Shown here: positions 40,195 through 52,435 of the stretch, in pieces
How positions within the stretch are numbered: position 1 is the first letter of the stretch
How the letters are laid out: every line of letters starts with the position of its first letter
From: Anaerolineales bacterium
GTDB lineage: Bacteria > Chloroflexota > Anaerolineae > Anaerolineales > Villigracilaceae
Reading direction: 5' to 3'
Assembly (NCBI GenBank): GCA_015075725.1
Contig: JABTTV010000001.1
Span: forward strand, 310,001-374,000
DNA length: 64,000 nt
Made by a program: the position numbers and the translations under genes
The notes under the pieces: model-generated
Seen by the model: only the letters and a program-made list of their open reading frames with translations
Databases searched by the model: none
Told to the model about the DNA's origin: nothing

Positions 40195-41238
40195 TTATTG
40201 CGGGAAGTTCGCGCACAAGTTGGAAAGGATCTCCGAACGCAGCGCTACGAGTTCCGGATATTTATAGAAAAACAGAATCTTCTGTTCGGCGATCGTGTCG
40301 CCTGCGGGTTTCGGGCTGAAGATGAAGAACGCCCAACTTTCAGCGATATCCTCTTCGGAGTTCGTGGCGGCGTAGTCGGTCAGGAACCGATCCTGATATT
40401 TTTGATAGAACGCGTCCTGTTTTTCGAGACGGGTATCCTCATCCTCTTCGAGGTTGATCTCGTTCCACTCTTCGCGGAGTTCATCCCAGAATTGATGGTA
40501 AAAATCGTCAACATAGGAATCGGCATCCGCGCAGCCCTCGCCGGGGAAGTAATTGGGGCAGGCCGATACCTCCTGAAGGTAGATATTGTTATCTTCCGGG
40601 TTGTTGAAAACGGCAAGACTAGGTGTGACCTGATCAGGTCCCAGAGTGAGCAGGTGAGCAAACTCATGAACGAGTGTATAGGTCAGGTTTGCGCGGTTTG
40701 CGATATCGGCAATATCCACATTCAATTTCCACACAGCCGGGTCCGATTCGGTCTGCACAACGGAGGCAAGCGTGTTGTCCGCACCGTCGGTGGTGATGGC
40801 GAATTCGCCGATCATGCCGCGGTTCTCGGCAGGGATGAGCGCGATGAAATAATTCCAGATCTCAAGATGCGCGGCTTCATCCTCCTGTTTATCCTGCAAT
40901 TCAGAAGGAACATCCTCAAAAGCAGGCTCGGAAATTTCATCCCCGTTCACGATATAGTTGACCAGGGTCACTTCGTCATCGGTTGCTTCGGATCCTTCCC
41001 CTTCAAGGGGTGCTGTGGCGATCTTGAGTATTTCCTCGGCGACCGCCGGGCATGAGCCGCCTTCCCCTGCAGCCGGTTCAAGGTCCTGAGCCGGGGCTTC
41101 TTCCGTGACCTCCGCGGATTCTTCCGAGAAAAATTCCTCCCCTTCGTAATCATCGAATTCGGCGCCTGTATCAACCCCGCAACCAAGAACGAATAAAAAC
41201 GCCGCGGATAAAACCAACAACAACTCTAACCGGGTCAT
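40195..41238 (-). CDS. Exported HExxH metallopeptidase-like lipoprotein
   Basis: A 347-residue lipoprotein with lipobox VLGC (Cys20). The signal is followed by an acidic linker (about 25-60). LVHEFAHLLTLGPDQVTP holds the zinc motif His191-Glu192-x-x-His195, and EEDIAESWAFFIFSPKP about 110 residues later could supply the third ligand Glu. The next gene upstream is a paralogue with the same layout. GAGGAG precedes ATG 41238. No family name was recognised with certainty. Such proteins could be peptidases working outside the membrane. Confidence 0.82.
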   Translation of the reverse strand: MTRLELLLVLSAAFLFVLGCGVDTGAEFDDYEGEEFFSEESAEVTEEAPAQDLEPAAGEGGSCPAVAEEILKIATAPLEGEGSEATDDEVTLVNYIVNGDEISEPAFEDVPSELQDKQEDEAAHLEIWNYFIALIPAENRGMIGEFAITTDGADNTLASVVQTESDPAVWKLNVDIADIANRANLTYTLVHEFAHLLTLGPDQVTPSLAVFNNPEDNNIYLQEVSACPNYFPGEGCADADSYVDDFYHQFWDELREEWNEINLEEDEDTRLEKQDAFYQKYQDRFLTDYAATNSEEDIAESWAFFIFSPKPAGDTIAEQKILFFYKYPELVALRSEILSNLCANFPQ

Positions 41239-41300
41239 CAAAAACTCCTCATAAGATTTTTCCAAGGATAACACAGGGAATTGGCGCTCGAGCGCACTTC

Positions 41301-42293
41301 TTAGTTATTTGACGAACATGTCCCCTTCAGGATCTCGCTCCGGATCCGGACCAGTTCCGGGTATTCGTAAAAGAAGCGGATCTTCTGCTCCCGAATGGAA
41401 TTCCCCATCGGTTTCGGGCTGAAAACAAAATAAGTGAACGACTCGGCAATATCCTCGGTGGGATGCGTGACGGCGTAATCGCCCACGAATTGGTCGCGAT
41501 GAGTTCGATAGAAATCATACAAGGCATTGTAATAATTCACATTTGCGTCCGACTGGTATTGAATGGCGTCGACATCCTCCCACTCGTCATTGATGCCTGT
41601 CCAGAAGCGTTTATAGAATGCATGAATGTACGAATCGGGGTGGCTGCATCCCATACCGGTGAAGTAACTGGGGCAGAGAACCGCTTTCTCGGTTTGCAGC
41701 ACCAGGCTGTACGGGTCGTTCGCCAGGTCTTGATCCGGTGTAACCTGCGAAGAATCTAGGGTCAGCAGGTGGGCATATTCGTGGATCAACGTAAAGATGA
41801 AGGCATCCTTGTTTTCGAGATCGGCGATATCGACTTCGAGTTTCCAGGACGAGATATCGTCCTGAATCACATCCACAGCGGCGAGCGTGTTATCCACCCC
41901 ATCGGTAAAAACGTTGAACTGCGCCACCATCTGGCGATTCCCGGGGGGAATCAATTCGGTGAACACTTCCCAGGCGTGATTTTGCAGGGAGAGGTCATTC
42001 TGTTCATCCTTCAAATCCGCTGGAACGGATTCGAACACCGGGTCTGTGATGACATTCCCTTCGACTCGATACAATGCCAGATTGTAAACATCGGGTTCCT
42101 CGAACTCCTCGACGCCAGCAAAGTCATAGACATCCCCCTGCCCGCCTGCAATGATCCGTTCCATGGATCGCGCGCAAACGGAATAAAATTCGACCCCCAA
42201 GACGGGAGTGTACTGCCTGCCGAGATATATTCCCAGCGCCAGAAAGACGACCAGAACAACCAGGGCGATCAGAAAGTTGGGATTTTTATACAT
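41301..42293 (-). CDS. Membrane-anchored HExxH metallopeptidase-like protein
   Basis: A 330-residue paralogue of the previous gene, with an uncleaved N-terminal helix (about 8-26) in place of a lipobox. The motif is FTLIHEYAHLLTLDSSQVTP (His171, Glu172, His175), and TEDIAESFTYFVFSPKP matches the second conserved block. The ends of both proteins align (KIRFFYEYPELVRIRSEIL against KILFFYKYPELVALRSEIL). Two such proteins side by side imply duplication. Substrate unknown; the position downstream of the modification locus permits, but does not show, a role in cutting its product. Confidence 0.82.
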   Translation of the reverse strand: MYKNPNFLIALVVLVVFLALGIYLGRQYTPVLGVEFYSVCARSMERIIAGGQGDVYDFAGVEEFEEPDVYNLALYRVEGNVITDPVFESVPADLKDEQNDLSLQNHAWEVFTELIPPGNRQMVAQFNVFTDGVDNTLAAVDVIQDDISSWKLEVDIADLENKDAFIFTLIHEYAHLLTLDSSQVTPDQDLANDPYSLVLQTEKAVLCPSYFTGMGCSHPDSYIHAFYKRFWTGINDEWEDVDAIQYQSDANVNYYNALYDFYRTHRDQFVGDYAVTHPTEDIAESFTYFVFSPKPMGNSIREQKIRFFYEYPELVRIRSEILKGTCSSNN

Positions 42294-42315: not shown

Positions 42316-43329
42316 TCAATTCACAGGGAAGGTGATCCAGCCCGCATCCAAAAAATACAGGTAAAGATATCCGAACAACAGGATCATCCACAACGCCAGT
42401 TGGATCTGGTCCATCAGGTTCTCCCACGAGATGGAAAGATTGTCCTTGATGGTCTGGACGATGCTTTCCAGGTTATCCAGCTTGGCGCGGACGCTGTCCT
42501 TCCAATCCTTCAAGTAAAGTTCGGATTGGATGGCTTCGTAAAGTTTTGCGGTATACCAATCACCGATCAGCAGCAGGGTCTGCTCGGTGCGCTCGAAATC
42601 CAGCATCACCTCGAGCTTGTGCTCCGCGATCTGTCGGATCAACCCGCGGGTGGCGCGCGGACGGCGCCGGTTTTGAAAGAACGATTCATTGATCTTATCG
42701 AGCAGCTGTTCGATGGAATTGTCGAGCATGCGGTAACGCAGCAATTGATAGTTGCCGATCTTCAACAGGACAATATCGGATTCATAATCCGCATTCGGGG
42801 CGATGATGACGGCACCCTCCCAATCCACCAACGTGAGTTCGGTGGCGGAATACCGGGTGCGTGACATCACGATCTCGTCGATTTCGTTCTTGTCGAAAGT
42901 ATCCCTCTGTGAACGGATAAACCGTGAGATCTCGAGCGCATTTCGGTCGATCCATTTGTCTGGTGTCTGCTTGATCGCGTCCACCAACAGGATCGTATAT
43001 TCCTCGAACAACCCGCTCTGGCGATATTCCACCGGTATATATTTACTCTTCAAAGTATCTTCGATCTTTATCCTCTCCTGCAATGCCGCAGAATCGAACG
43101 GGTCCTTCAATGAAAAACGCGCCTCCACCATCTGCGCTTGTTCGTCGTATTGATGGCGCATCACAGAAATGGCGTATCCTTCGATCAACACCGTCTCATC
43201 GCCAAGGCTGACCACGTCGATATCCACCGGCTGAAAGTATGGCGCGTCCTTCAACCCCTTGATGGACTCTTTTAAGGGCGCAACTTTGGTTTCAGTGTCG
43301 GGAAAAGCGATGAGATAACAAATTTCCAT
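42316..43329 (-). CDS. Membrane-associated protein with C-terminal helix, family not recognised
   Basis: A 337-residue protein. The N-terminal 230 residues are a mixed alpha/beta domain (VSLGDETVLIEGYAISVM, then VLLKIGNYQLLRYRML). A helical region with coiled-coil character (about 225-305) follows, and a single membrane helix near residues 310-328 ends it. This layout recalls RMND1/DUF155-like proteins, but the match is weak. TACACT at 43336-43341 (complement) ends 6 bases before the ATG with no ribosome site, so it may be leaderless. It lies between the methyltransferase gene and the HExxH genes on the same strand. Confidence 0.7.
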   Translation of the reverse strand: MEICYLIAFPDTETKVAPLKESIKGLKDAPYFQPVDIDVVSLGDETVLIEGYAISVMRHQYDEQAQMVEARFSLKDPFDSAALQERIKIEDTLKSKYIPVEYRQSGLFEEYTILLVDAIKQTPDKWIDRNALEISRFIRSQRDTFDKNEIDEIVMSRTRYSATELTLVDWEGAVIIAPNADYESDIVLLKIGNYQLLRYRMLDNSIEQLLDKINESFFQNRRRPRATRGLIRQIAEHKLEVMLDFERTEQTLLLIGDWYTAKLYEAIQSELYLKDWKDSVRAKLDNLESIVQTIKDNLSISWENLMDQIQLALWMILLFGYLYLYFLDAGWITFPVN

Positions 43330-43353: not shown

Positions 43354-44082
43354 CTACTTTTGCCCCCATGCAAAATACGTCGGCACATACAACACACGCC
43401 CTCCCTTCGCCCAGGCTTCATCATCCAATGCTTTCATTTTTTGGATTTCCTCCCCGGAAACGACTTCGCCCAAATCGGCGTTGATCACCGCCCATTCCAT
43501 CTCCCGCTCCCGGGCAGACGGCTCATTGACTCCGCCTTGAATGGTTCCCGCTTCTTTGAGTTGGATCCCGGCCTGAAAGAAAGTCTCCGCAAGTTTTGCG
43601 CCGAATCCCGGATCCGCGCCCTGACGTTTTAACGCGTCTCTCTGCCACTCCCCCAGTGGACGTAATGCGTCAGGCTTGTCCACTCGCGCATAATAATCCG
43701 GTTCTGCCAATGCAAGGATGTGACCGCCGCGTTTCGTCACACGCTTCATTTCGAGCACAGCTTGCAACGGGTCTTTCACCCACAACAAGTAGTAATGGCA
43801 AAAGACAATATCGAATAAGTTGGAATGATATGGAAGGGAAAGCCCGTTTCCGCAAGTCAATGAAGCCGCTGGAGCGTTGACCGAAGCCTGGGTCAACGCG
43901 ATAGGATTCAGGTCCAAGCCGTGAGGCGGGGCGGGGGTTTCGAGTCCGCACAGGATGGCGCCCGTGCCGCATCCAACTTCAAGCACGTGTTTCGCTTTCT
44001 TTAGTCCCGCCTTGTCAAAAAGATAAGCAGACAGGTCACGAGTCCATGCGGCTTGCTGGAGGTATCGAGCGTGCCAGTTCAT
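43354..44082 (-). CDS. Class I SAM-dependent methyltransferase
   Basis: A 242-residue methyltransferase. The SAM-binding motif I is VLEVGCGTGAIL (about residues 35-46); motif II is HGLDLNPIALTQA; FDIVFCHYYLLWVKDP is the motif IV region. The C-terminal part has a helical lid. The start is placed at ATG 44082; a slightly longer N-terminus from another start cannot be excluded since the open frame continues upstream. It is the third gene after the DUF2207-like protein gene and lies 49 bases downstream of the degenerate radical SAM gene. It may act on the same substrate, as methyltransferases often do in RiPP loci. Confidence 0.87.
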   Translation of the reverse strand: MNWHARYLQQAAWTRDLSAYLFDKAGLKKAKHVLEVGCGTGAILCGLETPAPPHGLDLNPIALTQASVNAPAASLTCGNGLSLPYHSNLFDIVFCHYYLLWVKDPLQAVLEMKRVTKRGGHILALAEPDYYARVDKPDALRPLGEWQRDALKRQGADPGFGAKLAETFFQAGIQLKEAGTIQGGVNEPSAREREMEWAVINADLGEVVSGEEIQKMKALDDEAWAKGGRVLYVPTYFAWGQK

Positions 44083-44131
44083 AAATTGCTCAGGCGGCGT
44101 CCCCGCCGCCGGGGCCTGCGGCGGGAGAAAA

Positions 44132-45277
44132 TCAACGATAGATGCTTTCCCAATTGTCTTCGAGCAGATTGCCAAGGACGTTTTCCGCCATGCCCTGCGC
44201 GGGAAGGACATCGCCGTCGGGTTCGACATATAACCAGGCTTTGCCCGCACCGGTGGGAACTCCATCCTCCTCAGTTTCGAGCGCGACAGGATTCTGAGCC
44301 GAGTACGGGACGGGCAGATCGAAATTGACCTTGATATTGAGGTCGGCGGCTTTTTGGGTGACCGCATCGAGTTCATTTTTCAAAGAAAGGTCTGCAAGGC
44401 TGAATGAAATGCTTTTGACCTGAAGCGCGGCAAGTTTCTCGAGCGTTGCGGTGATATTGGCGGCAATTTGTTTATTGATGGTGATATGAACGGTGACGAA
44501 AAGGTCATCGGGCATGATGGCTTCAAGCGCCTGCCATGACCTTTCATTTTCAGGTTGGAGCAGGAAGAGCAAATGGTCAAGCCCGGTTTGCAAAAGCAAT
44601 TGACGATAATCCTTGTCGGCGAGTTTCAAGCCGTCGCTGAGCAAGCCGCAGACTTGACCGTTCTTTTCGGCATGGGCGATGAGTTCGGGCAGGTCTTCGC
44701 GCAAGGTGGGTTCGCCGCCCGTGAAAGTGACATGCGGGACTCCCATGCGCCAGGCGGTATCTAGAATGGATTTCCATTCATCGGTGGTCAATTCGCGGTC
44801 AACGCGTTTGACAGGCGCATATTCCGCTTGAGTGTCTTCCGGGAGTCTATACGTCAACGCACAGTCCAGGCGGAGCGGGGCGGGCAAGTCTGCTGAATGG
44901 GGAGAAACTCTTTCGAATCCCAGATAGGAAACGGGGTCGACATCCTGCGATGTGACAAGAGTTTCGATGCGGTCGAGAAAATCCTGGTAATCTTCGAGCG
45001 CGATGTTTTTCCTGACACGATAGCGGGAGGCGATCTGTTTTGCGGCTTCGGCAGGCTCGGTGCCTTTGATGAAGTGATAGGCATATTCCGCGGCAGTCGG
45101 GTTGAGGTGCAATACCGTGGCGGCGTTGACGATGAACACGCCGGAACCATCCCCGCGCAGGCGGAGATGGACGCGGTACGGTTTTTTATCCGCCGATTCA
45201 GATTGCAGGTGATGCATTCCTTCGGGCAGGGGCGTGACCTTTGCGAAACGGTCTGCAAGACGATTGAAGATATTCAT
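44132..45277 (-). CDS. PqqD-like plus degenerate radical SAM protein (cluster cysteines lost)
   Basis: A 381-residue protein with a PqqD-like N-terminal domain (about 35-110; FIVNAATVLHLNPTAAEYAY) and a radical-SAM-type barrel (about 135-381). Aligned with the neighbour at 45274-46644, the cluster motif RCNNDCAHCY is replaced by RLPEDTQAEY, so the three cysteines are Leu145, Thr149 and Glu152. The GGE motif is kept (VTFTGGEPTL). The SPASM cysteines are also absent; the protein ends soon after YVEPDGDVLPAQG. It keeps the overall length and no frameshift is seen, so it is probably a stable pseudoenzyme. The start ATG 45277 has GGAGGCATC upstream and overlaps the previous stop as ATGA. Confidence 0.9.
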   Translation of the reverse strand: MNIFNRLADRFAKVTPLPEGMHHLQSESADKKPYRVHLRLRGDGSGVFIVNAATVLHLNPTAAEYAYHFIKGTEPAEAAKQIASRYRVRKNIALEDYQDFLDRIETLVTSQDVDPVSYLGFERVSPHSADLPAPLRLDCALTYRLPEDTQAEYAPVKRVDRELTTDEWKSILDTAWRMGVPHVTFTGGEPTLREDLPELIAHAEKNGQVCGLLSDGLKLADKDYRQLLLQTGLDHLLFLLQPENERSWQALEAIMPDDLFVTVHITINKQIAANITATLEKLAALQVKSISFSLADLSLKNELDAVTQKAADLNIKVNFDLPVPYSAQNPVALETEEDGVPTGAGKAWLYVEPDGDVLPAQGMAENVLGNLLEDNWESIYR

Positions 45278-46644
45278 GATGCCTCCAAATGGATGACAGG
45301 AAGGTCCACAAGATTCGATTTCCGGTAACCCTCCGCCGTGAGCGGACAGCCGCCGCCGCATTCAGCGACGACAGGACAGCCTGCGCATTTGGCAGGCAGG
45401 TTCTGCCGCTCGCGCAGCTGGACAGAAAGTTTGTGATTCCAGATCGAGTCCCAGGAGTCAGCCAGCATATTGCCGAGGGGATGATAATAGGATTGGCAGG
45501 GTAAAACGTTTCCATTCGACTCAATGCACATGCTGTATAACGCGGCAGTACAACCTTTGACTCCCAGGTTATTGGCGGTCGGGTCGAATTGACAATACTG
45601 CGTCGGCGTATACCAGATGAGGCGTTGCCCGCGTTGGCTGGTCTTCTGCGTGGCGATATCGAGGATGGGTTGGAGTTCGCTCTCTTTGAGCCCCGTTCCC
45701 ACTGTGATCCCGCTACCTGAATAAATAAGCGCATTCAAACCGACGGTCGGCACGCCGAGGTCTGCCAGAAAATCGAGCGTGGCGGGGATGCTGTGGACAT
45801 TCGTCCTCAGCATGGTGGTATTGGTCATCACATAAAGCGGCGAACGCAGGACGTTGTTCAACCCTGCGATCGTCTGGCGGAATGCGCCTTTGGCGCGCAT
45901 CATCTCGTCGTGGATCTCGGGCACGCAGGACTCAACCGTGATCTGCACATGGTCGAGACCGGCATCTACCAGTTCTTTGACGTAATCCATGTCCATCAAT
46001 CGGCGGGCGTTGGTGTTGAGTCCGGTGATCTGTCCGTTCGATTCGGCATGGCGGATCAACTCTGGGAGGTCGTTTCGCAAAGTCGCTTCACCGCCGGTGA
46101 AGACGACGTGCGGCACGCCCAACGCCCAGAGTTGATCGAGGATCTTGAACCATTGCCCGGTTGTCAGCTCGGGGAAGTTCCGCTCGCGGGCGTTGTAGCA
46201 ATGAGCGCAGTCATTATTACAGCGGTAGGTGACAGCCAAATCCATGCGGTAAGGCGCGGTGGGACGGGCGCTGAACGGCATGTCCATTTCAAGTTCGAGA
46301 TCGTGGATGGCGCATGCGCCGTCGGGGCGAATCAGCTCATCGAGTTGAATGTTGAAGTTTGAAAGGTCGTTCTCTGCCTGCTTTTTCGAAACCGAATAAC
46401 GCGAACATAAAGCGAAGATTCTTTCCTCTTTCGTCTTTCCTTCAAGAATCAACCATGCCATGAAAGCTGCAGTTGGATTCAGATGCATGACACTGTTGGC
46501 ATTGACGATCAAAGTGCCATCCCCGCCCGGGTCGATGCGCAGGTGGATGCGCGATTTCTCGGGTCCGTTCTCGCGGGTGTAATGATGAAGACCGGATTTT
46601 GGATATTCGATCTTAGATTGCCGATTGAACAGATCAGTTAACAA
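45274..46644 (-). CDS. PqqD-like plus radical SAM/SPASM protein
   Basis: A 456-residue protein. Residues of about 30-105 form a PqqD-like (RiPP recognition) domain (TLIVNANSVMHLNPTAA). The radical SAM core has Cys142-x3-Cys146-x2-Cys149 (YRCNNDCAHCYN) and GGE in VVFTGGEATL. The C-terminus is a SPASM-type auxiliary cluster region (CIESNGNVLPCQ, then CAGCPVVAECGGGCPLT). Family members modify peptides, for example by thioether or C-C bonds; the gene immediately upstream encodes the likely substrate. The start appears to be a TTG at 46644 with GAGGA upstream. It overlaps the degenerate paralogue by 4 bases. Confidence 0.92.
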   Translation of the reverse strand: MLTDLFNRQSKIEYPKSGLHHYTRENGPEKSRIHLRIDPGGDGTLIVNANSVMHLNPTAAFMAWLILEGKTKEERIFALCSRYSVSKKQAENDLSNFNIQLDELIRPDGACAIHDLELEMDMPFSARPTAPYRMDLAVTYRCNNDCAHCYNARERNFPELTTGQWFKILDQLWALGVPHVVFTGGEATLRNDLPELIRHAESNGQITGLNTNARRLMDMDYVKELVDAGLDHVQITVESCVPEIHDEMMRAKGAFRQTIAGLNNVLRSPLYVMTNTTMLRTNVHSIPATLDFLADLGVPTVGLNALIYSGSGITVGTGLKESELQPILDIATQKTSQRGQRLIWYTPTQYCQFDPTANNLGVKGCTAALYSMCIESNGNVLPCQSYYHPLGNMLADSWDSIWNHKLSVQLRERQNLPAKCAGCPVVAECGGGCPLTAEGYRKSNLVDLPVIHLEAS

Positions 46645-46677
46645 AGCCGTTTTTCCTCATTTACCAATTACCAATAA

Positions 46678-48345
46678 CTATCTTCCCCCGCCCGCACAGG
46701 CGCAGGCGCAGCCGGCGCAGGCACATGCACAGGCACAGGAACGTCCTCCACCGCCGCGGGAGCGACCACCGCTGCTCTTGGGCGGAGGCGGAGGCGGGTT
46801 GGTCACATTCGTGATCTTACCTGTGAACTCCTGAACGTTTCCGATGACTCCCGCAGCGAAGCCCTGCACACCATTGACCATGGACGCGGCAAAGTCTGCT
46901 CCGGGGAGCCCGGTTGAAGATGGGCCTCTGCCTGAGGATGAAGGCAGAGATACGGGCGTAGATGAAGAGCCGCCGCCTCCTCTCCAGGCTGGGTCATACC
47001 GCCCCCACCAATTCGGCACGATGATCGGACCGGTGAACGTGCGTCGCGTGCGGTCGTCGTAATCCTTGTCGAGCATCGTCCATTCGAGGGCTTCGTCGAA
47101 TTTCTGGCTTTTCACTTCGGGCGTATCGGCAGCTTCGACCTGCGCCCAGGCTCTCTCCATGATGTTTTTGTAATACTCGATCGTTTCGCGGCGGCTGAAG
47201 CCCTTCATTTTTTCAGAGACGCTTTTTACAAGCGCAACAGTCATGTCCTGCAACAACTTGCGGCGGGCTTTTTTATCGTTCTCGCCAAAAGCCTTGAGAA
47301 AATTGATTTCGTATTCGTGCAGTTTTTCCGGCAACGGCGAAGCAGCCTTCAACTCCAACGGATCGCGCGTCGTCACGGACGCGGCGTTCTTCTTGACCGC
47401 GCCGAACAGGATCATCGTCATGACCTTATCGAGCGGCTGTTCCATCAACAGGGCCGCTTCGACAGCAGTCAGCCCGCGTTTGATCCCGTGACCTTCGATG
47501 GAGATCTTGGGCGGCAGGTATTGCAATTTTCTGCGGTTCGCAGCGCGGACACCGAGGATGGGAAGACCGACAAAGAGGAAGCCAAATCCGCCTAGGCAAA
47601 GCAAAATGAAGAACGTTTCCGGGTCGATCAGGGGCCGCGGCGGCGGAGTGTAAATGGATTCCGCCGGAACATACGTGCGCGGAAAGGATGCGCCGAAGTT
47701 ATGGAATTTGGAAGCGTTCGCAACGGGTGAATACCATGTATAGGTGATGCGTCCTTCTTCATCGAATCCGGTTTGCGGCTCTGCGGGAAATCCCTCCGGC
47801 GCTTCGTGCCAGCGCGGCTCTTCGGGATCCATGTTCGGCGGCAGGTGGAAGGTCATGGTGAAATCGGTTGTACCGCTGACGTATTCAGAGCCGAACCACG
47901 TGGGAGCAAACGAAGCGCTGGCGTAGGCATCATCTTGATCGGGATAAAGAACGCTGCGAATGCCCGGGATGAAAACATGCACGGTTCCTCTCCCCCCCGC
48001 AGGGATGGTCTGGTTCCCCATTACGATCGCAAACCCCGAGCCGCTCCCAGCGTAATCGCTCCAAGAAACGGAAACAGGCGTCCCATCCACATCCGCGCGG
48101 ACATCGGATAGCTCGAACGTCGAGTTGACCGTGCCCACATCCACATAATCGATCGGATGAGAGCCGGGCAGGTTTGTAAAGGTCCATGTGTAATCGAGGT
48201 CCAATGTGCCATCTTCGTTCCAATAGGCATGCACAACTTCCTTATTTACCTCGAAGAGATACGGCAAGTCCTGCGCGAAAGCGTTCAACGTAAAAGATGG
48301 AAGCGCGAATAACACAAGAAAGGCAAAAAGAAGTTTTCGTTTCAT
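46678..48345 (-). CDS. DUF2207-like membrane protein with C-terminal Cys-Ala ladder
   Basis: A 555-residue exported protein. A signal peptide (1-24, ending NAFAQ) leads to an extracytoplasmic DUF2207-like beta domain (about 30-225). One membrane helix (about 244-267) and a cytosolic helical domain follow (about 280-430), then a Gly/Ser/Pro linker with PPPPPPK and GGRSRGGGGR. The last 20 residues contain seven Cys in CACACACAGCACACA and end GGGR. The ladder uses mixed codons (TGT and TGC; GCC, GCA and GCG), so it is held by selection on protein sequence. The membrane topology puts the ladder in the cytosol, where the two PqqD/radical SAM proteins encoded 33 bases downstream could act on it. 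Ladder function is inference. Confidence 0.9.
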   Translation of the reverse strand: MKRKLLFAFLVLFALPSFTLNAFAQDLPYLFEVNKEVVHAYWNEDGTLDLDYTWTFTNLPGSHPIDYVDVGTVNSTFELSDVRADVDGTPVSVSWSDYAGSGSGFAIVMGNQTIPAGGRGTVHVFIPGIRSVLYPDQDDAYASASFAPTWFGSEYVSGTTDFTMTFHLPPNMDPEEPRWHEAPEGFPAEPQTGFDEEGRITYTWYSPVANASKFHNFGASFPRTYVPAESIYTPPPRPLIDPETFFILLCLGGFGFLFVGLPILGVRAANRRKLQYLPPKISIEGHGIKRGLTAVEAALLMEQPLDKVMTMILFGAVKKNAASVTTRDPLELKAASPLPEKLHEYEINFLKAFGENDKKARRKLLQDMTVALVKSVSEKMKGFSRRETIEYYKNIMERAWAQVEAADTPEVKSQKFDEALEWTMLDKDYDDRTRRTFTGPIIVPNWWGRYDPAWRGGGGSSSTPVSLPSSSGRGPSSTGLPGADFAASMVNGVQGFAAGVIGNVQEFTGKITNVTNPPPPPPKSSGGRSRGGGGRSCACACACAGCACACAGGGR

Positions 48346-48378
48346 GGCATTCCTTTTATCGGTATCAAGTGGTATCAG

Positions 48379-48420
48379 GTGTCAGGTGTCAACTATCAGG
48401 AAAAACCTGACACCTGACAC
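48379..48420. repeat. CAGGTGTCA-type palindromic repeat
   Basis: GTGTCAGGTGTCA (48379-48391) is repeated in inverse at 48408-48420. The unit CAGGTGTCAGGTGTCA is itself a direct repeat. It fills the gap between the zinc-ribbon gene and the DUF2207-like gene. Confidence 0.7.
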
Positions 48421-48439
48421 TCCGCACCTGAAACTTTCC

Positions 48440-48841
48440 CTACCACTTCGGTTCTTCGGTCAGTTGATATGTCGTGCCGCAGTACGGGCATTCCACAGTC
48501 GGCGCACCGGCAACGAGCTTGATATTCTCCGACTTCAACACCCCGCCGCAGGACTGGCACTTCATCTGCTCGATCTTCGTCTCGCCGGGCAGGTCCACTT
48601 TCATGGTCACCTGCTGGACGATTTCGGTTTTCGACCCGCGCTGCGCGGCGTAGACCATCCATGCCCCGCCGCCGAGGAACAACACGCCTGCACAGCCAAA
48701 ACCTAGTCCAAAGGTCAGCCAGTTGGAATCACCCTGGGCGGAGGTCGAGCCAACAACACTCAATACGCCGTATCCGAACAGACACAATCCGATCAAGAAT
48801 AGAATCCCCGCGCCGATATAAAGTAGTGTTTTGCTTCCCAT
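48440..48841 (-). CDS. Two-helix membrane protein with C-terminal zinc ribbon
   Basis: A 133-residue protein. Two membrane helices lie at about 6-28 and 42-65. The C-terminal part carries a zinc ribbon: CQSCGGVLK (Cys94, Cys97) and CPYCGTTY (Cys118, Cys121). The ribbon should face the cytosol. It is the first gene of the minus-strand run that includes the DUF2207-like protein, with a 94-base gap that holds a palindromic repeat. A role as membrane scaffold or zinc-dependent partner for the modification proteins is possible but not shown. Confidence 0.82.
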   Translation of the reverse strand: MGSKTLLYIGAGILFLIGLCLFGYGVLSVVGSTSAQGDSNWLTFGLGFGCAGVLFLGGGAWMVYAAQRGSKTEIVQQVTMKVDLPGETKIEQMKCQSCGGVLKSENIKLVAGAPTVECPYCGTTYQLTEEPKW

Positions 48842-49024: not shown

Positions 49025-50677
49025 ATGACAAAAAGCGATCATTACCAAACATGGCAGGAAACCACCCTAAAAAAATCACTCGATAAATTCAAGGAGCGGA
49101 GGGACCGCTTCGAGACGACCTCCGGAATCGAAATACCGCGCCTCGCGACCCCGCCCGGGCCTGATTCGGCCTACGAGGAGAAGTTGGGCTACCCCGGAGA
49201 ATATCCCTTCACCCGCGGAGTCCAGCCGACGATGTACCGTTCACGCTTCTGGACGATGCGCCAATACGCAGGTTTTGCAACTGCTGAAGAAACGAACAAA
49301 CGCTACCGATACCTGCTCGCAAATGGACAGACAGGTTTGAGCGTCGCGTTTGACCTCCCCACTCAGATCGGCTACGATGCGGATGACCCCATCGCGCAGG
49401 GAGAAGTCGGCAAAGTCGGCGTGTCCATTTCTTCCATTGTTGACATGCAACAGTTGTTCGACCAGATACCGCTCGACAAAGTTTCCACATCCATGACAAT
49501 CAACGCGCCCGCGGGGGTTTTGCTCGCGATGTACATCGCCGTTGCCAAGCGCCAGGGCGCGGACATGAAGCAACTGCGCGGCACGATCCAGAACGACATT
49601 CTCAAGGAATACGTGGCGCGCGGAACGTATATCTTCCCGCCTGCGCCGTCGATGCGGCTGATTACGGACATCTTCCAGTTCTGCTCGAAGGAAGTGCCGT
49701 ATTGGAACACGATCTCGATCTCGGGCTATCACATCCGCGAAGCCGGTTCGACCGCCGTGCAGGAAGTAGCCTTCACCCTTGCGAACGGAATCGCCTACGT
49801 CGAAGCGGCATTGAAGGTCGGTCTCAATATAGACGATTTCGCGGGTCAGCTTTCGTTCTTCTTCAATGCGCACAACAACCTGCTCGAAGAAGTTGCCAAA
49901 TTTCGCGCGGCAAGACGCATGTGGGCACGCATCATGCGCGAACGTTTCAAAGCGCAGAAGCCGTCTTCTTGGCAGTTGCGCTTCCACACTCAAACCGCCG
50001 GTTCGACTCTCACCGCACAACAGCCGGAAAATAACGTGGTGCGTGTGACCTTGCAAGCGCTTTCTGCCGTCCTCGGCGGGACGCAAAGTTTGCACACCAA
50101 CAGCATGGACGAAGCCTTGTGGCTGCCGACCGAAAAATCCGTCCGTGTGGCGCTGCGGACCCAGCAAATCCTCGCGCACGAATCCGGTGTCGCGGACTCG
50201 GTTGATCCGCTCGCGGGTTCGTATCTCATCGAGCATCTCACCGACGAGATCGAAAAAGGCGCGCTCGATTACATCGCTAAAATTGACGAAATGGGCGGAG
50301 CCTTGCCCGCCATCGAGCGCGGATTCATGCAGAACGAAATCCAAAATGCAGCGTATGCCGCCCAGCAAGCCATTGAAAAGAAAGAACAAATTATTGTCGG
50401 CGTCAACGCGTTTGAAGTGAAAGAAGAAAGAAGTTTGGAAAGACTGGTGGTTGATCCCGCCATCGAGGCAGTTCAACGAGCGGAGTTAAAGCATTTACGC
50501 GAGACAAGAGACGAGGGACGAGTGAACGAGTTGCGCGGAAGGTTGGTCACAGCCGCGAAAGGGACGGAGAACCTGATGCCGCTGTTTATTGAATGTGTGG
50601 AACATGACATGACCCTCGGCGAGATTTGTAATACGCTGAGAGGGGTGTGGGGTGAGTATGTGGCGGAAGGGTTTTAG
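49025..50677 (+). CDS. Methylmalonyl-CoA mutase, catalytic alpha-type subunit
   Basis: A 550-residue mutase without the C-terminal B12-binding domain, which in this type is a separate small protein not found in the window. It opens with the substrate-channel region [21 protein letters not shown] and holds [39 protein letters not shown] and [19 protein letters not shown], all typical of alpha subunits. It interconverts methylmalonyl-CoA and succinyl-CoA. The retained Tyr in PTMY fits methylmalonyl rather than isobutyryl substrates, but related CoA mutases cannot be excluded. It has its own start 183 bases beyond the divergent zinc-ribbon gene. The AT-rich nuclease-like gene follows 42 bases downstream. 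Confidence 0.93.
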
Positions 50678-50719: not shown

Positions 50720-52435
50720 ATGTCAGATAAGAAAAAGAGAAGACGCCGGAGAAATGGGAACTCTAGAAATGAGTTTATTGCATTTGAATACTATTCGAGA
50801 CCTTTTTTGTTACTCGGGGATGAAATTACACGTTTTGGATATGACAATAGAAAGCCGCATGAAATTAGAAAAAGGTTTTGGAGTTTACTCCCCGATCGAA
50901 CGTATGCATCTCTCGAAATAAGCCCATTACTAAAACATTATATCAATTCTATAGAAGACAATCTGAAAGAAATTATTAGCAAACGCTCATTGGCATACTG
51001 GTTGCACGTATACAGAAGAATTGGACCCTACTCAGCAGGGATAGATGAACAACCAATAACAATTGGATTGGTGCGAGCAGCATTCGAAATGGCTTTTTTG
51101 AAGTATGCTAACTTTGCCCCATGCCATTCAATAGGCATAAGCAAAGAAACTCCAATTGAAAATATTTTATCTGGACTATTAATGTCAGAGGAATTCGAAT
51201 TAGAGAGAAATCTCATCAATGAAGCATCAAAACAAATGGTCTTAACCGATTTTAATTCCCTAAATTTGCTTGAAATATATAATGCAGAAAAATTAGCATA
51301 TGAACTTTGGAGGAGCACAGCAAGCTTAAGAATTGCTGGAAAAGGGGCTTCTTTTACGATAAGTCAGTCAGAGCCCTATATTTTCGACAATCGAAACGAC
51401 GAACTTGATAAACTTGTCCAAATATATGACAGCAGACATCATGGTATATCGTCTACATCATTGACAGGAACTTCATTCAGCAACCTCTCCAACCTAGAGG
51501 ACTCTGGAAAAATCATTATCCCAACATATAATATGGGGCACTTACCATCCGAAAAATTCAATGAATTATTCAGAGGGGTTTTTAATCTCAACATTCAGAA
51601 CTCAATGGTTTTTAATTTTTTGTGGGCGCCGTTTGAAATTGGTAAATACAGAAAATCTCACATCCCATATTCAGAAAAGTTCTTAGAAATCCACAATGTG
51701 GAATTAGACTCAGTTTTACTAACAATAACCGCGCTATGCAATCGGGTACTTCTCAATATGAAAAACGACTCGTTACATGCAATTCATAGATACTATCAAA
51801 GAGCTTATGAGGGTCCAAGTAAAAAATCATTGGTAATTGAAGAAATATTTAAATATCTACCAATAGCAGCTAGAACTCTTAATATTCCCGAAGAACAAAT
51901 ATCTCAAGAAAAGATTTTAAGCGCTATTGGTTTCTTAGAGCTATCAAAAAGCAAACAAGTTGATCTAAATTTACAATATCCTGGTCCGCATATGGTATTC
52001 CTACCTTACGCAGAAGATCGTTGGTTTATTGATTATGCATGGCTTAACAGTCTACTTTACAATCTCTTCATTGGTGTTTCACCCGACGATCAAAAATTCA
52101 AGGGTGATATTCTTGAAAAAGTTGTTAATTTTAGACAATCAATATTACCAACAAAACCATGCAAATCAACTTCAGGGCAATTTAAACAAATAGATGCATC
52201 ATTTAAAGTCGGAAGCCGATTGGTAATTGTTGAATGTAAAGCAATCAATAAATCAGTCGCTTTTGACAAAGGTGACCCTAGTTCAATTCAATTCAGAAAT
52301 AATAAATTTACTGATGCATTAAATGAGGTCGACGAGAAGGCGCAATGGCTAGCAAATAACCCATTGGGAACAAATTATGATATACGTAATTTTAGCGAGA
52401 TATTGCCTATAGTAATATCTCCTTTTGTAGAATAA
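50720..52435 (+). CDS. AT-rich PD-(D/E)xK nuclease-like protein
   Basis: A 571-residue protein, lower in GC than anything else in the window, with codons such as AAA, ATT and TTA dominant; this suggests recent transfer. Near the C-terminus QIDASFKVGSRLVIVECKA gives Asp492, Glu505 and Lys507, the spacing of the PD-(D/E)xK nuclease core. The rest is helical with no recognised domain, and the N-terminus is very basic (KKKRRRRR). The frame stops at TAA 52433-52435, but the same frame continues for 46 more sense codons to a second TAA, so the C-terminus may be truncated. Functions such as restriction or defence nuclease are possible. AAGG-type ribosome site. Confidence 0.75.
   Translation: MSDKKKRRRRRNGNSRNEFIAFEYYSRPFLLLGDEITRFGYDNRKPHEIRKRFWSLLPDRTYASLEISPLLKHYINSIEDNLKEIISKRSLAYWLHVYRRIGPYSAGIDEQPITIGLVRAAFEMAFLKYANFAPCHSIGISKETPIENILSGLLMSEEFELERNLINEASKQMVLTDFNSLNLLEIYNAEKLAYELWRSTASLRIAGKGASFTISQSEPYIFDNRNDELDKLVQIYDSRHHGISSTSLTGTSFSNLSNLEDSGKIIIPTYNMGHLPSEKFNELFRGVFNLNIQNSMVFNFLWAPFEIGKYRKSHIPYSEKFLEIHNVELDSVLLTITALCNRVLLNMKNDSLHAIHRYYQRAYEGPSKKSLVIEEIFKYLPIAARTLNIPEEQISQEKILSAIGFLELSKSKQVDLNLQYPGPHMVFLPYAEDRWFIDYAWLNSLLYNLFIGVSPDDQKFKGDILEKVVNFRQSILPTKPCKSTSGQFKQIDASFKVGSRLVIVECKAINKSVAFDKGDPSSIQFRNNKFTDALNEVDEKAQWLANNPLGTNYDIRNFSEILPIVISPFVE

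Follow-up and report, generated by a model that had tools for sequence, protein, structure and literature searches.

Near-invariant Cys-Ala tails of membrane proteins and their paired radical SAM enzyme: a candidate thioether modification in bacteria and Asgard archaea

Most known radical SAM enzymes with an RRE domain make short peptide products. Among described systems, the TIGR04222 membrane proteins, whose C-terminal low-complexity, Cys-rich tails are proposed in PMC12452194 to be substrates of an adjacent MNIO (DUF692) enzyme, share with the ladder protein (LAD) analyzed here the membrane protein, the Cys-rich C-terminal tail and the adjacent RiPP-type enzyme. However, the TIGR04222 tails are Ser/Gly-rich with interspersed Cys and are predicted to be periplasmic, the enzyme paired with LAD (RS1) is a radical SAM protein, and 490 of 1372 TIGR04222 genomes are without MNIO, whereas the pairing of LAD is near-complete. 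In PMC7876137, QhpD is described as linking Cys of QhpC to Asp/Glu of the same protein with the help of QhpG, and thus resembles RS1 and LAD in its protein-subunit substrate, several Cys thioethers (predicted for LAD), single operon and a helper that improves the reaction. QhpC differs in its cleaved leader, in its Asp/Glu acceptors and in not being a membrane protein with a Cys-Ala ladder, and QhpG is a flavoprotein whereas RS2, the second protein encoded here, is a dead radical SAM protein. SkfB (6efn), which forms a thioether at the Met12 alpha-carbon in its substrate SkfA (PMC6231123), shares with RS1 an N-terminal RRE, a radical SAM barrel and an auxiliary cluster domain, but acts on a peptide and has a Twitch domain with one auxiliary cluster, in contrast to the eight conserved SPASM Cys of RS1.

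In the window, i.e. the whole stretch of 64,000 nucleotides that was analyzed, the ORF translation of LAD has the C-terminus CACACACAGCACACAGGGR, ending in ...GGGGRSCACACACAGCACACAGGGR with seven Cys within the final 19 residues, so that the Cys-rich ladder and GGGR noted in the original prediction are indeed present (Table 1). The tail DNA pattern had a single match in the window and none in 100 shuffles, and a chance origin was rejected. In the AlphaFold2 model of LAD (mean pLDDT 86; <50 for residues 524–555), the winged-helix/helical domain is predicted to be cytosolic, and the ladder would form the cytosolic end of the protein. The label “DUF2207-like” did not hold, as Pfam DUF2207 (PF09972/PF20990) did not match the window LAD at E≤1. 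TIGR04222 (NCBIfam, cut-off 43 bits) did not match it at E≤1 either. Of 76 aligned LAD-type proteins, one matched DUF2207 (at 0.0015) and eight matched TIGR04222 weakly at E≤0.01 (best 7.8e-5), and the Hungatella homolog P0167 scored 23.0 bits against DUF2207, below the gathering score of 24.4; any likeness to DUF2207 is distant at best. M1 peptidases and oligosaccharyltransferase subunits among the 50 Foldseek matches listed for the model were set aside for their low TM-scores (0.22–0.27 by model length), and the LAD profile gave a single, chance-level match to PDB sequences (E 0.065).

Table 1. Features of the ladder locus, in positions of the window.
Feature	Position	Strand	Remarks
NXT, conserved neighbor with C-terminal TM	42316..43329	-	lineage-specific
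Class I SAM-dependent methyltransferase	43354..44082	-	accessory; Methyltransf_11 2.5e-17
RS2, PqqD-like plus degenerate radical SAM barrel	44132..45277	-	predicted substrate-binding partner
RS1, PqqD-like (RRE)/radical SAM/SPASM	45274..46644	-	456 aa; predicted modifying enzyme
RS1 SPASM region, C351 to C433	45346..45594	-	
RS1 CxxxCxxC (C142, C146, C149)	46198..46221	-	
LAD	46678..48345	-	ORF, 555 aa
C-terminal GGGR	46681..46692	-	LAD residues 552-555
Cys-Ala ladder CACACACAGCACACA	46693..46737	-	LAD residues 537-551; predicted modification site
LAD domains			signal helix; beta-sandwich ectodomain 31-222; TM helix 242-276; winged-helix/helical domain 294-436; disordered C-terminal tail (AlphaFold2 model, hydropathy, charge)
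ZNR, two-TM protein with C-terminal zinc ribbon	48440..48841	-	

LAD homologs were selected by word matches to residues 1–500 only, so with the tail excluded, and among the best 120 the last 19 aa were identical in 118. In these 120 homologs, the mean column majority was 0.999 for the ladder, compared with 0.74 for the ectodomain, 0.82 for the cytosolic domain and 0.68 for the linker; the Ala of the ladder were as fixed as the Cys, and GGGR was invariant in 76 diverse proteins. A DNA search with a tail-only pattern that did not include GGGR returned at least 119 loci from many bacterial phyla and from Asgard archaea, a wider spread than the earlier reading had given, in membrane proteins of about 300–750 residues. 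The ladder was in frame in all 119 tail loci listed, 117 of which had the exact GGGR-stop end. The 57-nt tail DNA gave 117 distinct sequences among 117, which together with the near-fixed tail of the best 120 homologs shows that the tail is selected as protein, as first proposed.

Among 400 genomes of the source phylum, the ladder protein was found in 28, and RS1 lay directly downstream on the same strand in every one (17–656 nt between alignment ends), whereas strong matches to both were absent in 371 of the other 372 (Fisher p 3e-42, a value that is too strong because the genomes are related). The pairing was also seen in 38 of 40 relative stretches. The expectation that the pair is always adjacent thus held in these 28 genomes; among the 119 tail loci listed, the enzyme was near the ladder in 104, and for 12 it was encoded in the same genome but on a different contig, so that adjacency is usual and not universal, with both present in the genome for 116. 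The remaining three (L135, L151 and L174) are on short or cut contigs. Sigynarchaeota L094 and Lokiarchaeota L137 are among the 12 loci whose only strong enzyme match was on another contig. For four of the 12 (L090, L131, L167 and L173) the separation may be due to a contig end; for the other eight (L074, L093, L094, L109, L110, L137, L154 and L189) the flanking DNA examined contained no active enzyme. In G057 the enzyme is ~127 kb away from the ladder gene, and in L087, L096, L181 and L147 it is on the opposite strand. Gene order varies: the enzyme gene follows the ladder gene in type A, lies upstream of it in type B (L083, L112) and directly abuts it on the upstream side in Hungatella. Additional hydrophobic stretches in the type B and Lokiarchaeota-type bodies make the cytosolic placement of their tails uncertain. 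In L213 and L216 a related enzyme adjoins a tail-less LAD-like ORF.

RS1 starts at TTG 46644, 33 nt past the LAD stop, exactly where the original prediction had placed the first PqqD/radical SAM gene. Pfam matches were to Radical_SAM (9.5e-25), SPASM (1.1e-9) and PqqD (5.7e-7), and CxxxCxxC and the eight SPASM Cys were kept in 39 of 39 active rows of the RS1 alignment. RS1 thus combines the PqqD/RRE domain, CxxxCxxC and SPASM clusters of an RRE-guided radical SAM/SPASM enzyme, and on the substrate side a gene-encoded conserved core is linked to it, usually though not universally. The best solved relatives were SkfB (2.3e-20, the top PDB match) and PqqE (3.1e-17). Scores against the NCBIfam sactisynthase models were all far below cut-off (SkfB 93.7 of 300 bits, AlbA 65.4 of 850, StsB 98.3 of 625), and the score against the PqqE model was below cut-off as well (127.7 of 381.35 bits). 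ACGX (TIGR04340), for which no paper was found in open-licence PMC, is similar, in a comparison by name only, as a radical SAM/SPASM model whose name refers to a motif with Cys; it gave 67 bits for RS1 and 91 for an (HSAC) enzyme (see below), with a cut-off of 400. HxsC gave 66 bits where 267.9 are needed, and the suggested likeness to the His-Xaa-Ser (Hxs) systems was not supported, membership of them being rejected. RS2, which overlaps RS1 by 4 nt as first described, if it starts at ATG 45277, is without CxxxCxxC and the SPASM Cys (LDCALTYRLPEDTQAEYAPV), and both motifs were missing in 80 of 80 RS2-type ORFs. This loss makes RS2 a pseudo-enzyme, so that of the two PqqD/radical SAM proteins claimed earlier only RS1 stands in full, the PqqD match of RS2 (20.4 bits) also falling below the Pfam cut-off of 23.4. 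The structure model of RS2 (pLDDT 86, pTM 0.86) was nearest to PqqE, SkfB and SuiB.

The same ladder, followed by AGCSxKDFY, was found on a different body in Hungatella and its homologs. The Hungatella body gave no meaningful BLAST match to the window LAD (best E 0.09), and the LAD profile aligned to the Hungatella protein only at its ladder. In both such loci read (Hungatella L245 and G625 L244) a radical SAM gene adjoins, and in fact abuts, the ladder gene, and the ORF lists held neither a methyltransferase nor a zinc ribbon, which suggests that the ladder and enzyme genes are the core. Some relatives carry (HSAC)n tails, and the enzymes alongside in L190–L192 are 30–32% identical to RS1. 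In a radical SAM tree, to be taken as a rough guide (long branches, one Hungatella row left out, L222 mislabelled type B), the three HSAC enzymes formed one group and most type-B enzymes clustered. A regular hairpin that pairs Cys with Ala around the central Gly can be drawn; it was not relied on because the center varies, with (CA)6 without Gly in G625 and S, SS or SH in some Hungatella homologs. In a phage collection, the Hungatella body had a single weak match (29%).

Taken together, RS1 probably modifies the predicted cytosolic tail of LAD, its likely substrate, by joining Cys to Ala through thioether bonds. Of the original proposal, a long membrane-protein ladder as substrate of an adjacent PqqD/radical SAM enzyme is supported by the pairing in the 28 genomes, and the two radical SAM proteins and the Hxs parallel are not. 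Thioether chemistry was chosen for the kinship of RS1 and the invariance of Ala, which is more than bare thiol or metal binding would need. The PqqD-like domain of RS1 would dock the tail, possibly by GGGR or the Gly/Ser-rich linker and helped by catalytically dead RS2 where present; RS1 would then take hydrogen from the ladder and join Cys sulfur to an Ala carbon, repeating this along the ladder, and the methyltransferase might add a later, optional mark, e.g. on a thiol that stayed free or on the carboxylate at the C-terminus. The product may be a stiff, Cys-rich, membrane-tethered element that is read or used by ZNR, perhaps in metal/redox sensing, the weakest step of the proposal. RS1 could instead change the tail by other chemistry, namely alternate-residue epimerization, conversion of Cys to formylglycine or a different change at an alpha- or beta-carbon, any of which might be accompanied by methylation; this reading is possible but unlikely. 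Alternate-residue epimerization has precedent. It would suit a strictly alternating two-residue ladder; SPASM/RRE chemistry is varied, RS1 matching the PqqE, NirJ, AhbC, SkfB and mycofactocin models, none above cut-off, and EpeE, an epimerase, and anSME are among the structure matches of RS2. However, the Cys of every ladder unit is as fixed as the Ala, which argues for a reaction using both, and anSME target motifs are not seen. A role of the unmodified ladder as metal-thiolate or Fe-S ligand, with the enzyme acting elsewhere or only helping a cofactor, is improbable. Seven Cys at two-residue spacing near a zinc-ribbon membrane protein, in a tail disordered in the model, would fit such a ligand, but metal sites rarely fix spacer residues and here both the ladder Ala and GGGR are fixed; moreover, the enzyme goes with the tail onto another body and into other phyla, and no RS1 or RS2 match was present in the stretches around the tail-less LAD-like bodies L193, L196 and L197. 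The fixed motif at the C-terminus, preceded by a Gly/Ser-rich linker, resembles a sorting signal. A sorting or anchoring function, with the pairing as inherited operon order, is nevertheless very improbable given that the pairing persists across phyla despite rearranged gene order, that the strong matches are absent together from most genomes of the phylum and that the enzyme is retained even where the genes are apart.

The predicted thioether ladder (CA)n-G-(CA)n-GGGR may well represent a widespread new class of radical-SAM modification of envelope proteins, shared between Asgard archaea and bacteria of many phyla; the same module would sit on the Hungatella-type body, and a sister system would act on (HSAC)n tails. 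In the portion of open-licence PMC covered, neither a report of any modification of the Cys-Ala tail nor a description of a ladder-tail/radical SAM system was found, and a search of open-licence PMC for DUF2207 together with radical SAM found no paper. A near-identical tail on membrane proteins in Chloroflexota, Asgard archaea and Hungatella suggests that the product has a cell-biological job rather than being an antibiotic or cofactor. The system offers a clear substrate/enzyme pair for testing, with a predictable mass for the tryptic C-terminal peptide of LAD (SCACACACAGCACACAGGGR; computed unmodified [M+H]+ 1708.56) and named strains that carry it (Bellilinea caldifistulae GOMI-1, Levilinea saccharolytica KIBI-1, Ornatilinea apprima P3M-1 and Leptolinea sp. 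HRD-7). It may also offer a starting point for explaining the odd low-complexity tails of DUF2207/TIGR04222-type envelope proteins.

The remaining neighbors are less constant, some loci being without methyltransferase, RS2 or ZNR. The class I methyltransferase reported after RS2 is present, but the ORF listed for it from 44376 is too long; the start is likely ATG 44082, since in most alignments of relatives the match sets in at about residue 25 of that longer version. Among the matches listed, it was found in 58 of the 119 tail-locus stretches, many of them themselves incomplete, and ZNR in 77. ZNR also adjoins the tail-less LAD-like bodies in L193 and L196 and is perhaps a partner of the LAD body rather than of the tail. 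NXT had 22 matches across the 40 relative stretches and frequently lay between the RS1 and RS2 genes.

The ladder protein (LAD, 555 aa), a membrane protein with a Cys-Ala C-terminal tail, was found in a minus-strand cassette read in the order ZNR-LAD-RS1-RS2-methyltransferase, in agreement with the original prediction of a ladder tail on a membrane protein with a PqqD/radical SAM gene and a methyltransferase alongside. Of 40 relative stretches, 14 carried a homolog of the first ORF of a nearby HEYAH/HEFAH pair close to the ladder cassette.

Coordinates of the cassette genes and of other features in the window and in compared records
Feature	Record	Coordinates	Strand	Remark
ZNR, two-TM zinc-ribbon protein	window	48841-48440	-	first in order; ORF and domain search
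ZNR-LAD intergenic sequence	window	48346-48439		TCAGGTGTCA-like sequence repeated in direct and inverted orientation; may form a hairpin (by eye)
LAD, ladder protein	window	48345-46678	-	second; C-terminal end CACACACAGCACACAGGGR
RS1, PqqD/radical SAM/SPASM enzyme	window	46644-45274	-	third
RS2, second PqqD-bearing protein	window	45277-44132	-	fourth
Methyltransferase	window	likely 44082-43354	-	fifth
Two related HExxH ORFs (HEYAH, HEFAH)	window	41301-42293; 40195-41274	-	weak Peptidase_Mx matches
Mutase-like ORF	window	49025-50677
571-aa ORF	window	50720-52435	+	after mutase-like ORF; function unassigned
Tail-less LAD-like protein	L196	1686-6046	-	ZNR nearby
Tail-less LAD-like protein	L197	5741-9970	-
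(HSAC)n/VHDAC repeat-tail membrane proteins	L190; L191; L192	9093-10808; 4792-6645; 4049-5824	-; +; -	directly upstream of RS1-like enzyme
Hungatella-type ladder protein	L244	6783-7793	+	(CA)6, no central Gly; abuts radical SAM gene
Match to Hungatella ladder-protein body	MT837216.1	2869-3384	-	weak (29%, E 1e-9); deposited as phage from human faecal samples

The conservation of the tail was assessed in homologs retrieved with words from the first 500 residues of LAD only, so that candidates (7999 scored, 4677 matches) were picked without the tail. In the best 120 of the 4677 matches, the last 19 residues were identical in 118, the exceptions being a partial-labelled record without the final GR and a protein with an altered repeat. 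Mean column majority in these 120 was 0.999 for the ladder, 0.74 for the ectodomain, 0.82 for the cytosolic domain and 0.68 for the linker, with 19/19 tail columns reaching 0.99 versus 116/536 in the body. When 76 proteins (28-81% identity to the window LAD) were aligned, 14 of 24 invariant columns fell within the last 17 residues; since 67 of the 76 came from a tail-pattern scan that fixes CACACAGCACA, independent evidence there comes only from the last repeat and GGGR.

That scan, using a degenerate DNA pattern for CACACAGCACA on one genome per GTDB species, gave at least 119 loci, and in all 119 examined the match was in frame. Tails were of the form (CA)4G(CA)3GGGR (68 loci), (CA)5G(CA)3GGGR (17), (CA)3G(CA)3GGGR (17) or (CA)3G(CA)4GGGR (15), the remaining two being one ending in GGGGGR and one extended (Hungatella hathewayi). 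Tail parts beyond the search pattern thus recurred alike, with an exact single GGGR end in 117/119 loci, encoded by 117 distinct DNA sequences. The tail is genuine and under selection, as protein, as had been proposed. Among the matches listed, bacterial titles included Chloroflexota (most), Fermentibacteraceae/Sabulitectum, Aminicenantes, Planctomycetes, Zixiibacteriota, Coatesbacteria, Edwardsbacteria, Armatimonadetes, Acidobacteriota and Hydrogenedentota, archaeal titles included Hodarchaeota, Heimdallarchaeota, Sigynarchaeota and Lokiarchaeota, and named strains included members of Ornatilinea, Bellilinea, Levilinea, Leptolinea and Hungatella; single taxon assignments may err because most records are metagenome-assembled genomes.

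Among 400 Chloroflexota genomes, LAD (E < 1e-100) was detected in 28, all of which also carried RS1 (E < 1e-60); RS1 occurred in one further genome (G192). The resulting Fisher p of 3e-42 for co-occurrence is too strong as the genomes are related. In 28/28, LAD was followed downstream by RS1 on the same strand of the same contig, with 17-656 nt between alignment ends, and the enzyme adjacency proposed as a check in ladder-bearing Chloroflexota was thereby borne out; weaker LAD matches in G200, G203, G270, G424 and G434, and second weaker ones in G070, G256 and G310, were left uncounted. G192 is no exception to the pairing because its enzyme adjoins a membrane protein with another repeat tail, (HSAC)n, as is likewise the case in G434 and at a second site of G070. 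Twenty homologs of this second tail type were found, several of them partial. In 40 relative stretches (39 genomes), the ladder was present in 38 and an active enzyme, judged from motifs, in 38; the L064 and L068 stretches end before the ladder. L064 stops at a contig edge, and its genome encodes the enzyme at another site. In G057 (L060), ~127 kb separate the enzyme gene from the ladder gene.

Across the 119 tail loci, an active enzyme was present in the fetched stretch (≤8 kb) in 91 (88 on the same strand; L162 and L163 as low-scoring pieces), and within 300 nt of the ladder (stop-to-stop ORFs) in 84. A genome-wide search for all 28 others placed the enzyme, or its cut end, near the ladder on its own contig in 13 (L080, L089, L097, L098, L114, L123, L126, L129, L140, L149, L180, the Hungatella locus L143, abutting at E 1.5e-43, and L147, ~3 kb away on the opposite strand). 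Another 12 had a match < 1e-70 on another contig only, with the ladder at a contig end in four (L090, L131, L167, L173) and flanking DNA without an active enzyme in eight (L074, L093, L094, L109, L110, L137, L154, L189); L135, L151 and L174 gave only matches of 2e-33 to 2.7e-36. Adjacency was therefore frequent rather than invariable: of the at least 119 loci, the 119 examined had the enzyme nearby in 104, elsewhere in the genome in 12 and as weak matches alone in 3. In Sigynarchaeota L094 and Lokiarchaeota L137, the ladder and a ZNR-like gene were on one contig and the enzyme and a methyltransferase-like gene on another; Lokiarchaeota L159 had an active enzyme within the fetched stretch.

Searching the fetched stretches around the tail-less LAD-like bodies L193, L196 and L197 at E 1e-3 gave no match to RS1 or RS2, and the same held for L194, where a LAD-like part belongs to a kinase-like ORF. 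Two of the three tail-less bodies adjoin a ZNR. This suggests that the ZNR accompanies the protein body and that the enzyme accompanies the tail, although in the counter-cases L213 and L216 an RS1-type enzyme lies next to a LAD-like ORF that lacks the tail. A protein near the L196/L197 ORFs may resemble the SPFH/YdjI kind.

The tail was also found on other bodies. G009 has a second ladder ORF of 255 residues beside the first (L041), and outside the ladder, sequence and profile comparison detected no similarity between the Hungatella protein and LAD; weak DUF2207 matches occur among homologs of the Hungatella protein. In the best 120 of its at least 2021 homologs, retrieved with a query that included the tail, the ladder was present in 119, with CACACACA directly before the Gly stretch in 119 and GGGRAGC[S/T]xK[D/E] following in 108. 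At both Hungatella-type loci read, L245 (Hungatella) and L244 (G625), a radical SAM gene lay directly upstream, and neither a methyltransferase nor a zinc ribbon was seen in their ORF lists. The core thus seems to be the ladder protein and the radical SAM enzyme, with RS2, methyltransferase and ZNR as accessories. Hungatella-type proteins occurred in 2/146 genomes of the order of Hungatella. In the metagenome protein P0199, one ORF fuses a partial radical SAM enzyme to a ladder-protein end; the fusion may reflect misassembly or a deletion but is consistent with gene adjacency.

Of the two radical SAM proteins originally predicted, RS1 stands, whereas RS2 has LPEDTQAEYAP in place of CxxxCxxC and has lost the SPASM cysteines, so that by its motifs it is not a working radical SAM enzyme. 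Both CxxxCxxC and the SPASM CxxCx5CxxxC were absent from 80/80 ORFs best fitting the RS2 profile in the fetched loci, a count in which some genomes entered more than once. In the RS1 alignment, CxxxCxxC was retained together with eight SPASM cysteines in 39 of 42 rows; the remaining three were pseudo-enzymes of type B loci (enzyme upstream of the ladder gene), keeping only the last four SPASM cysteines. The predicted RS2 fold (pLDDT 86, pTM 0.86) was still nearest PqqE, SkfB and SuiB in structure comparison.

The LAD model (pLDDT 86) comprised a signal helix, a beta-sandwich, a long TM helix (242-276) and a winged-helix/helical domain, with the tail disordered (pLDDT < 50). In the 33/84 relatives with a single predicted TM, net charge averaged -0.9 on the N-terminal side of the TM and +4.0 on the C-terminal side, a bias that predicts a cytosolic tail, as first proposed; this location is less sure for type B and Lokiarchaeota-type bodies, which have extra hydrophobic stretches. 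Beyond pairing and conservation, what we infer from sequence is the chemistry: near-total fixation of Ala alongside Cys suggests that both would take part and favours thioether links between them over a metal site, and the RRE and SPASM architecture of RS1 and its kinship to SkfB and PqqE would fit thioether formation.

The ladder proteins scanned matched no NCBIfam or Pfam model at its cut-off, and no description of this system was found in the literature searched. A modified Cys-rich tail on a membrane protein has been proposed before, for TIGR04222 with MNIO enzymes (PMC12452194), and QhpD is a known radical SAM enzyme that acts on a protein, showing that such a substrate is feasible (PMC7876137). 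A DUF2207 protein of Streptococcus mutans, a distant relative of LAD at best, affects stress tolerance and biofilm (PMC10457818).
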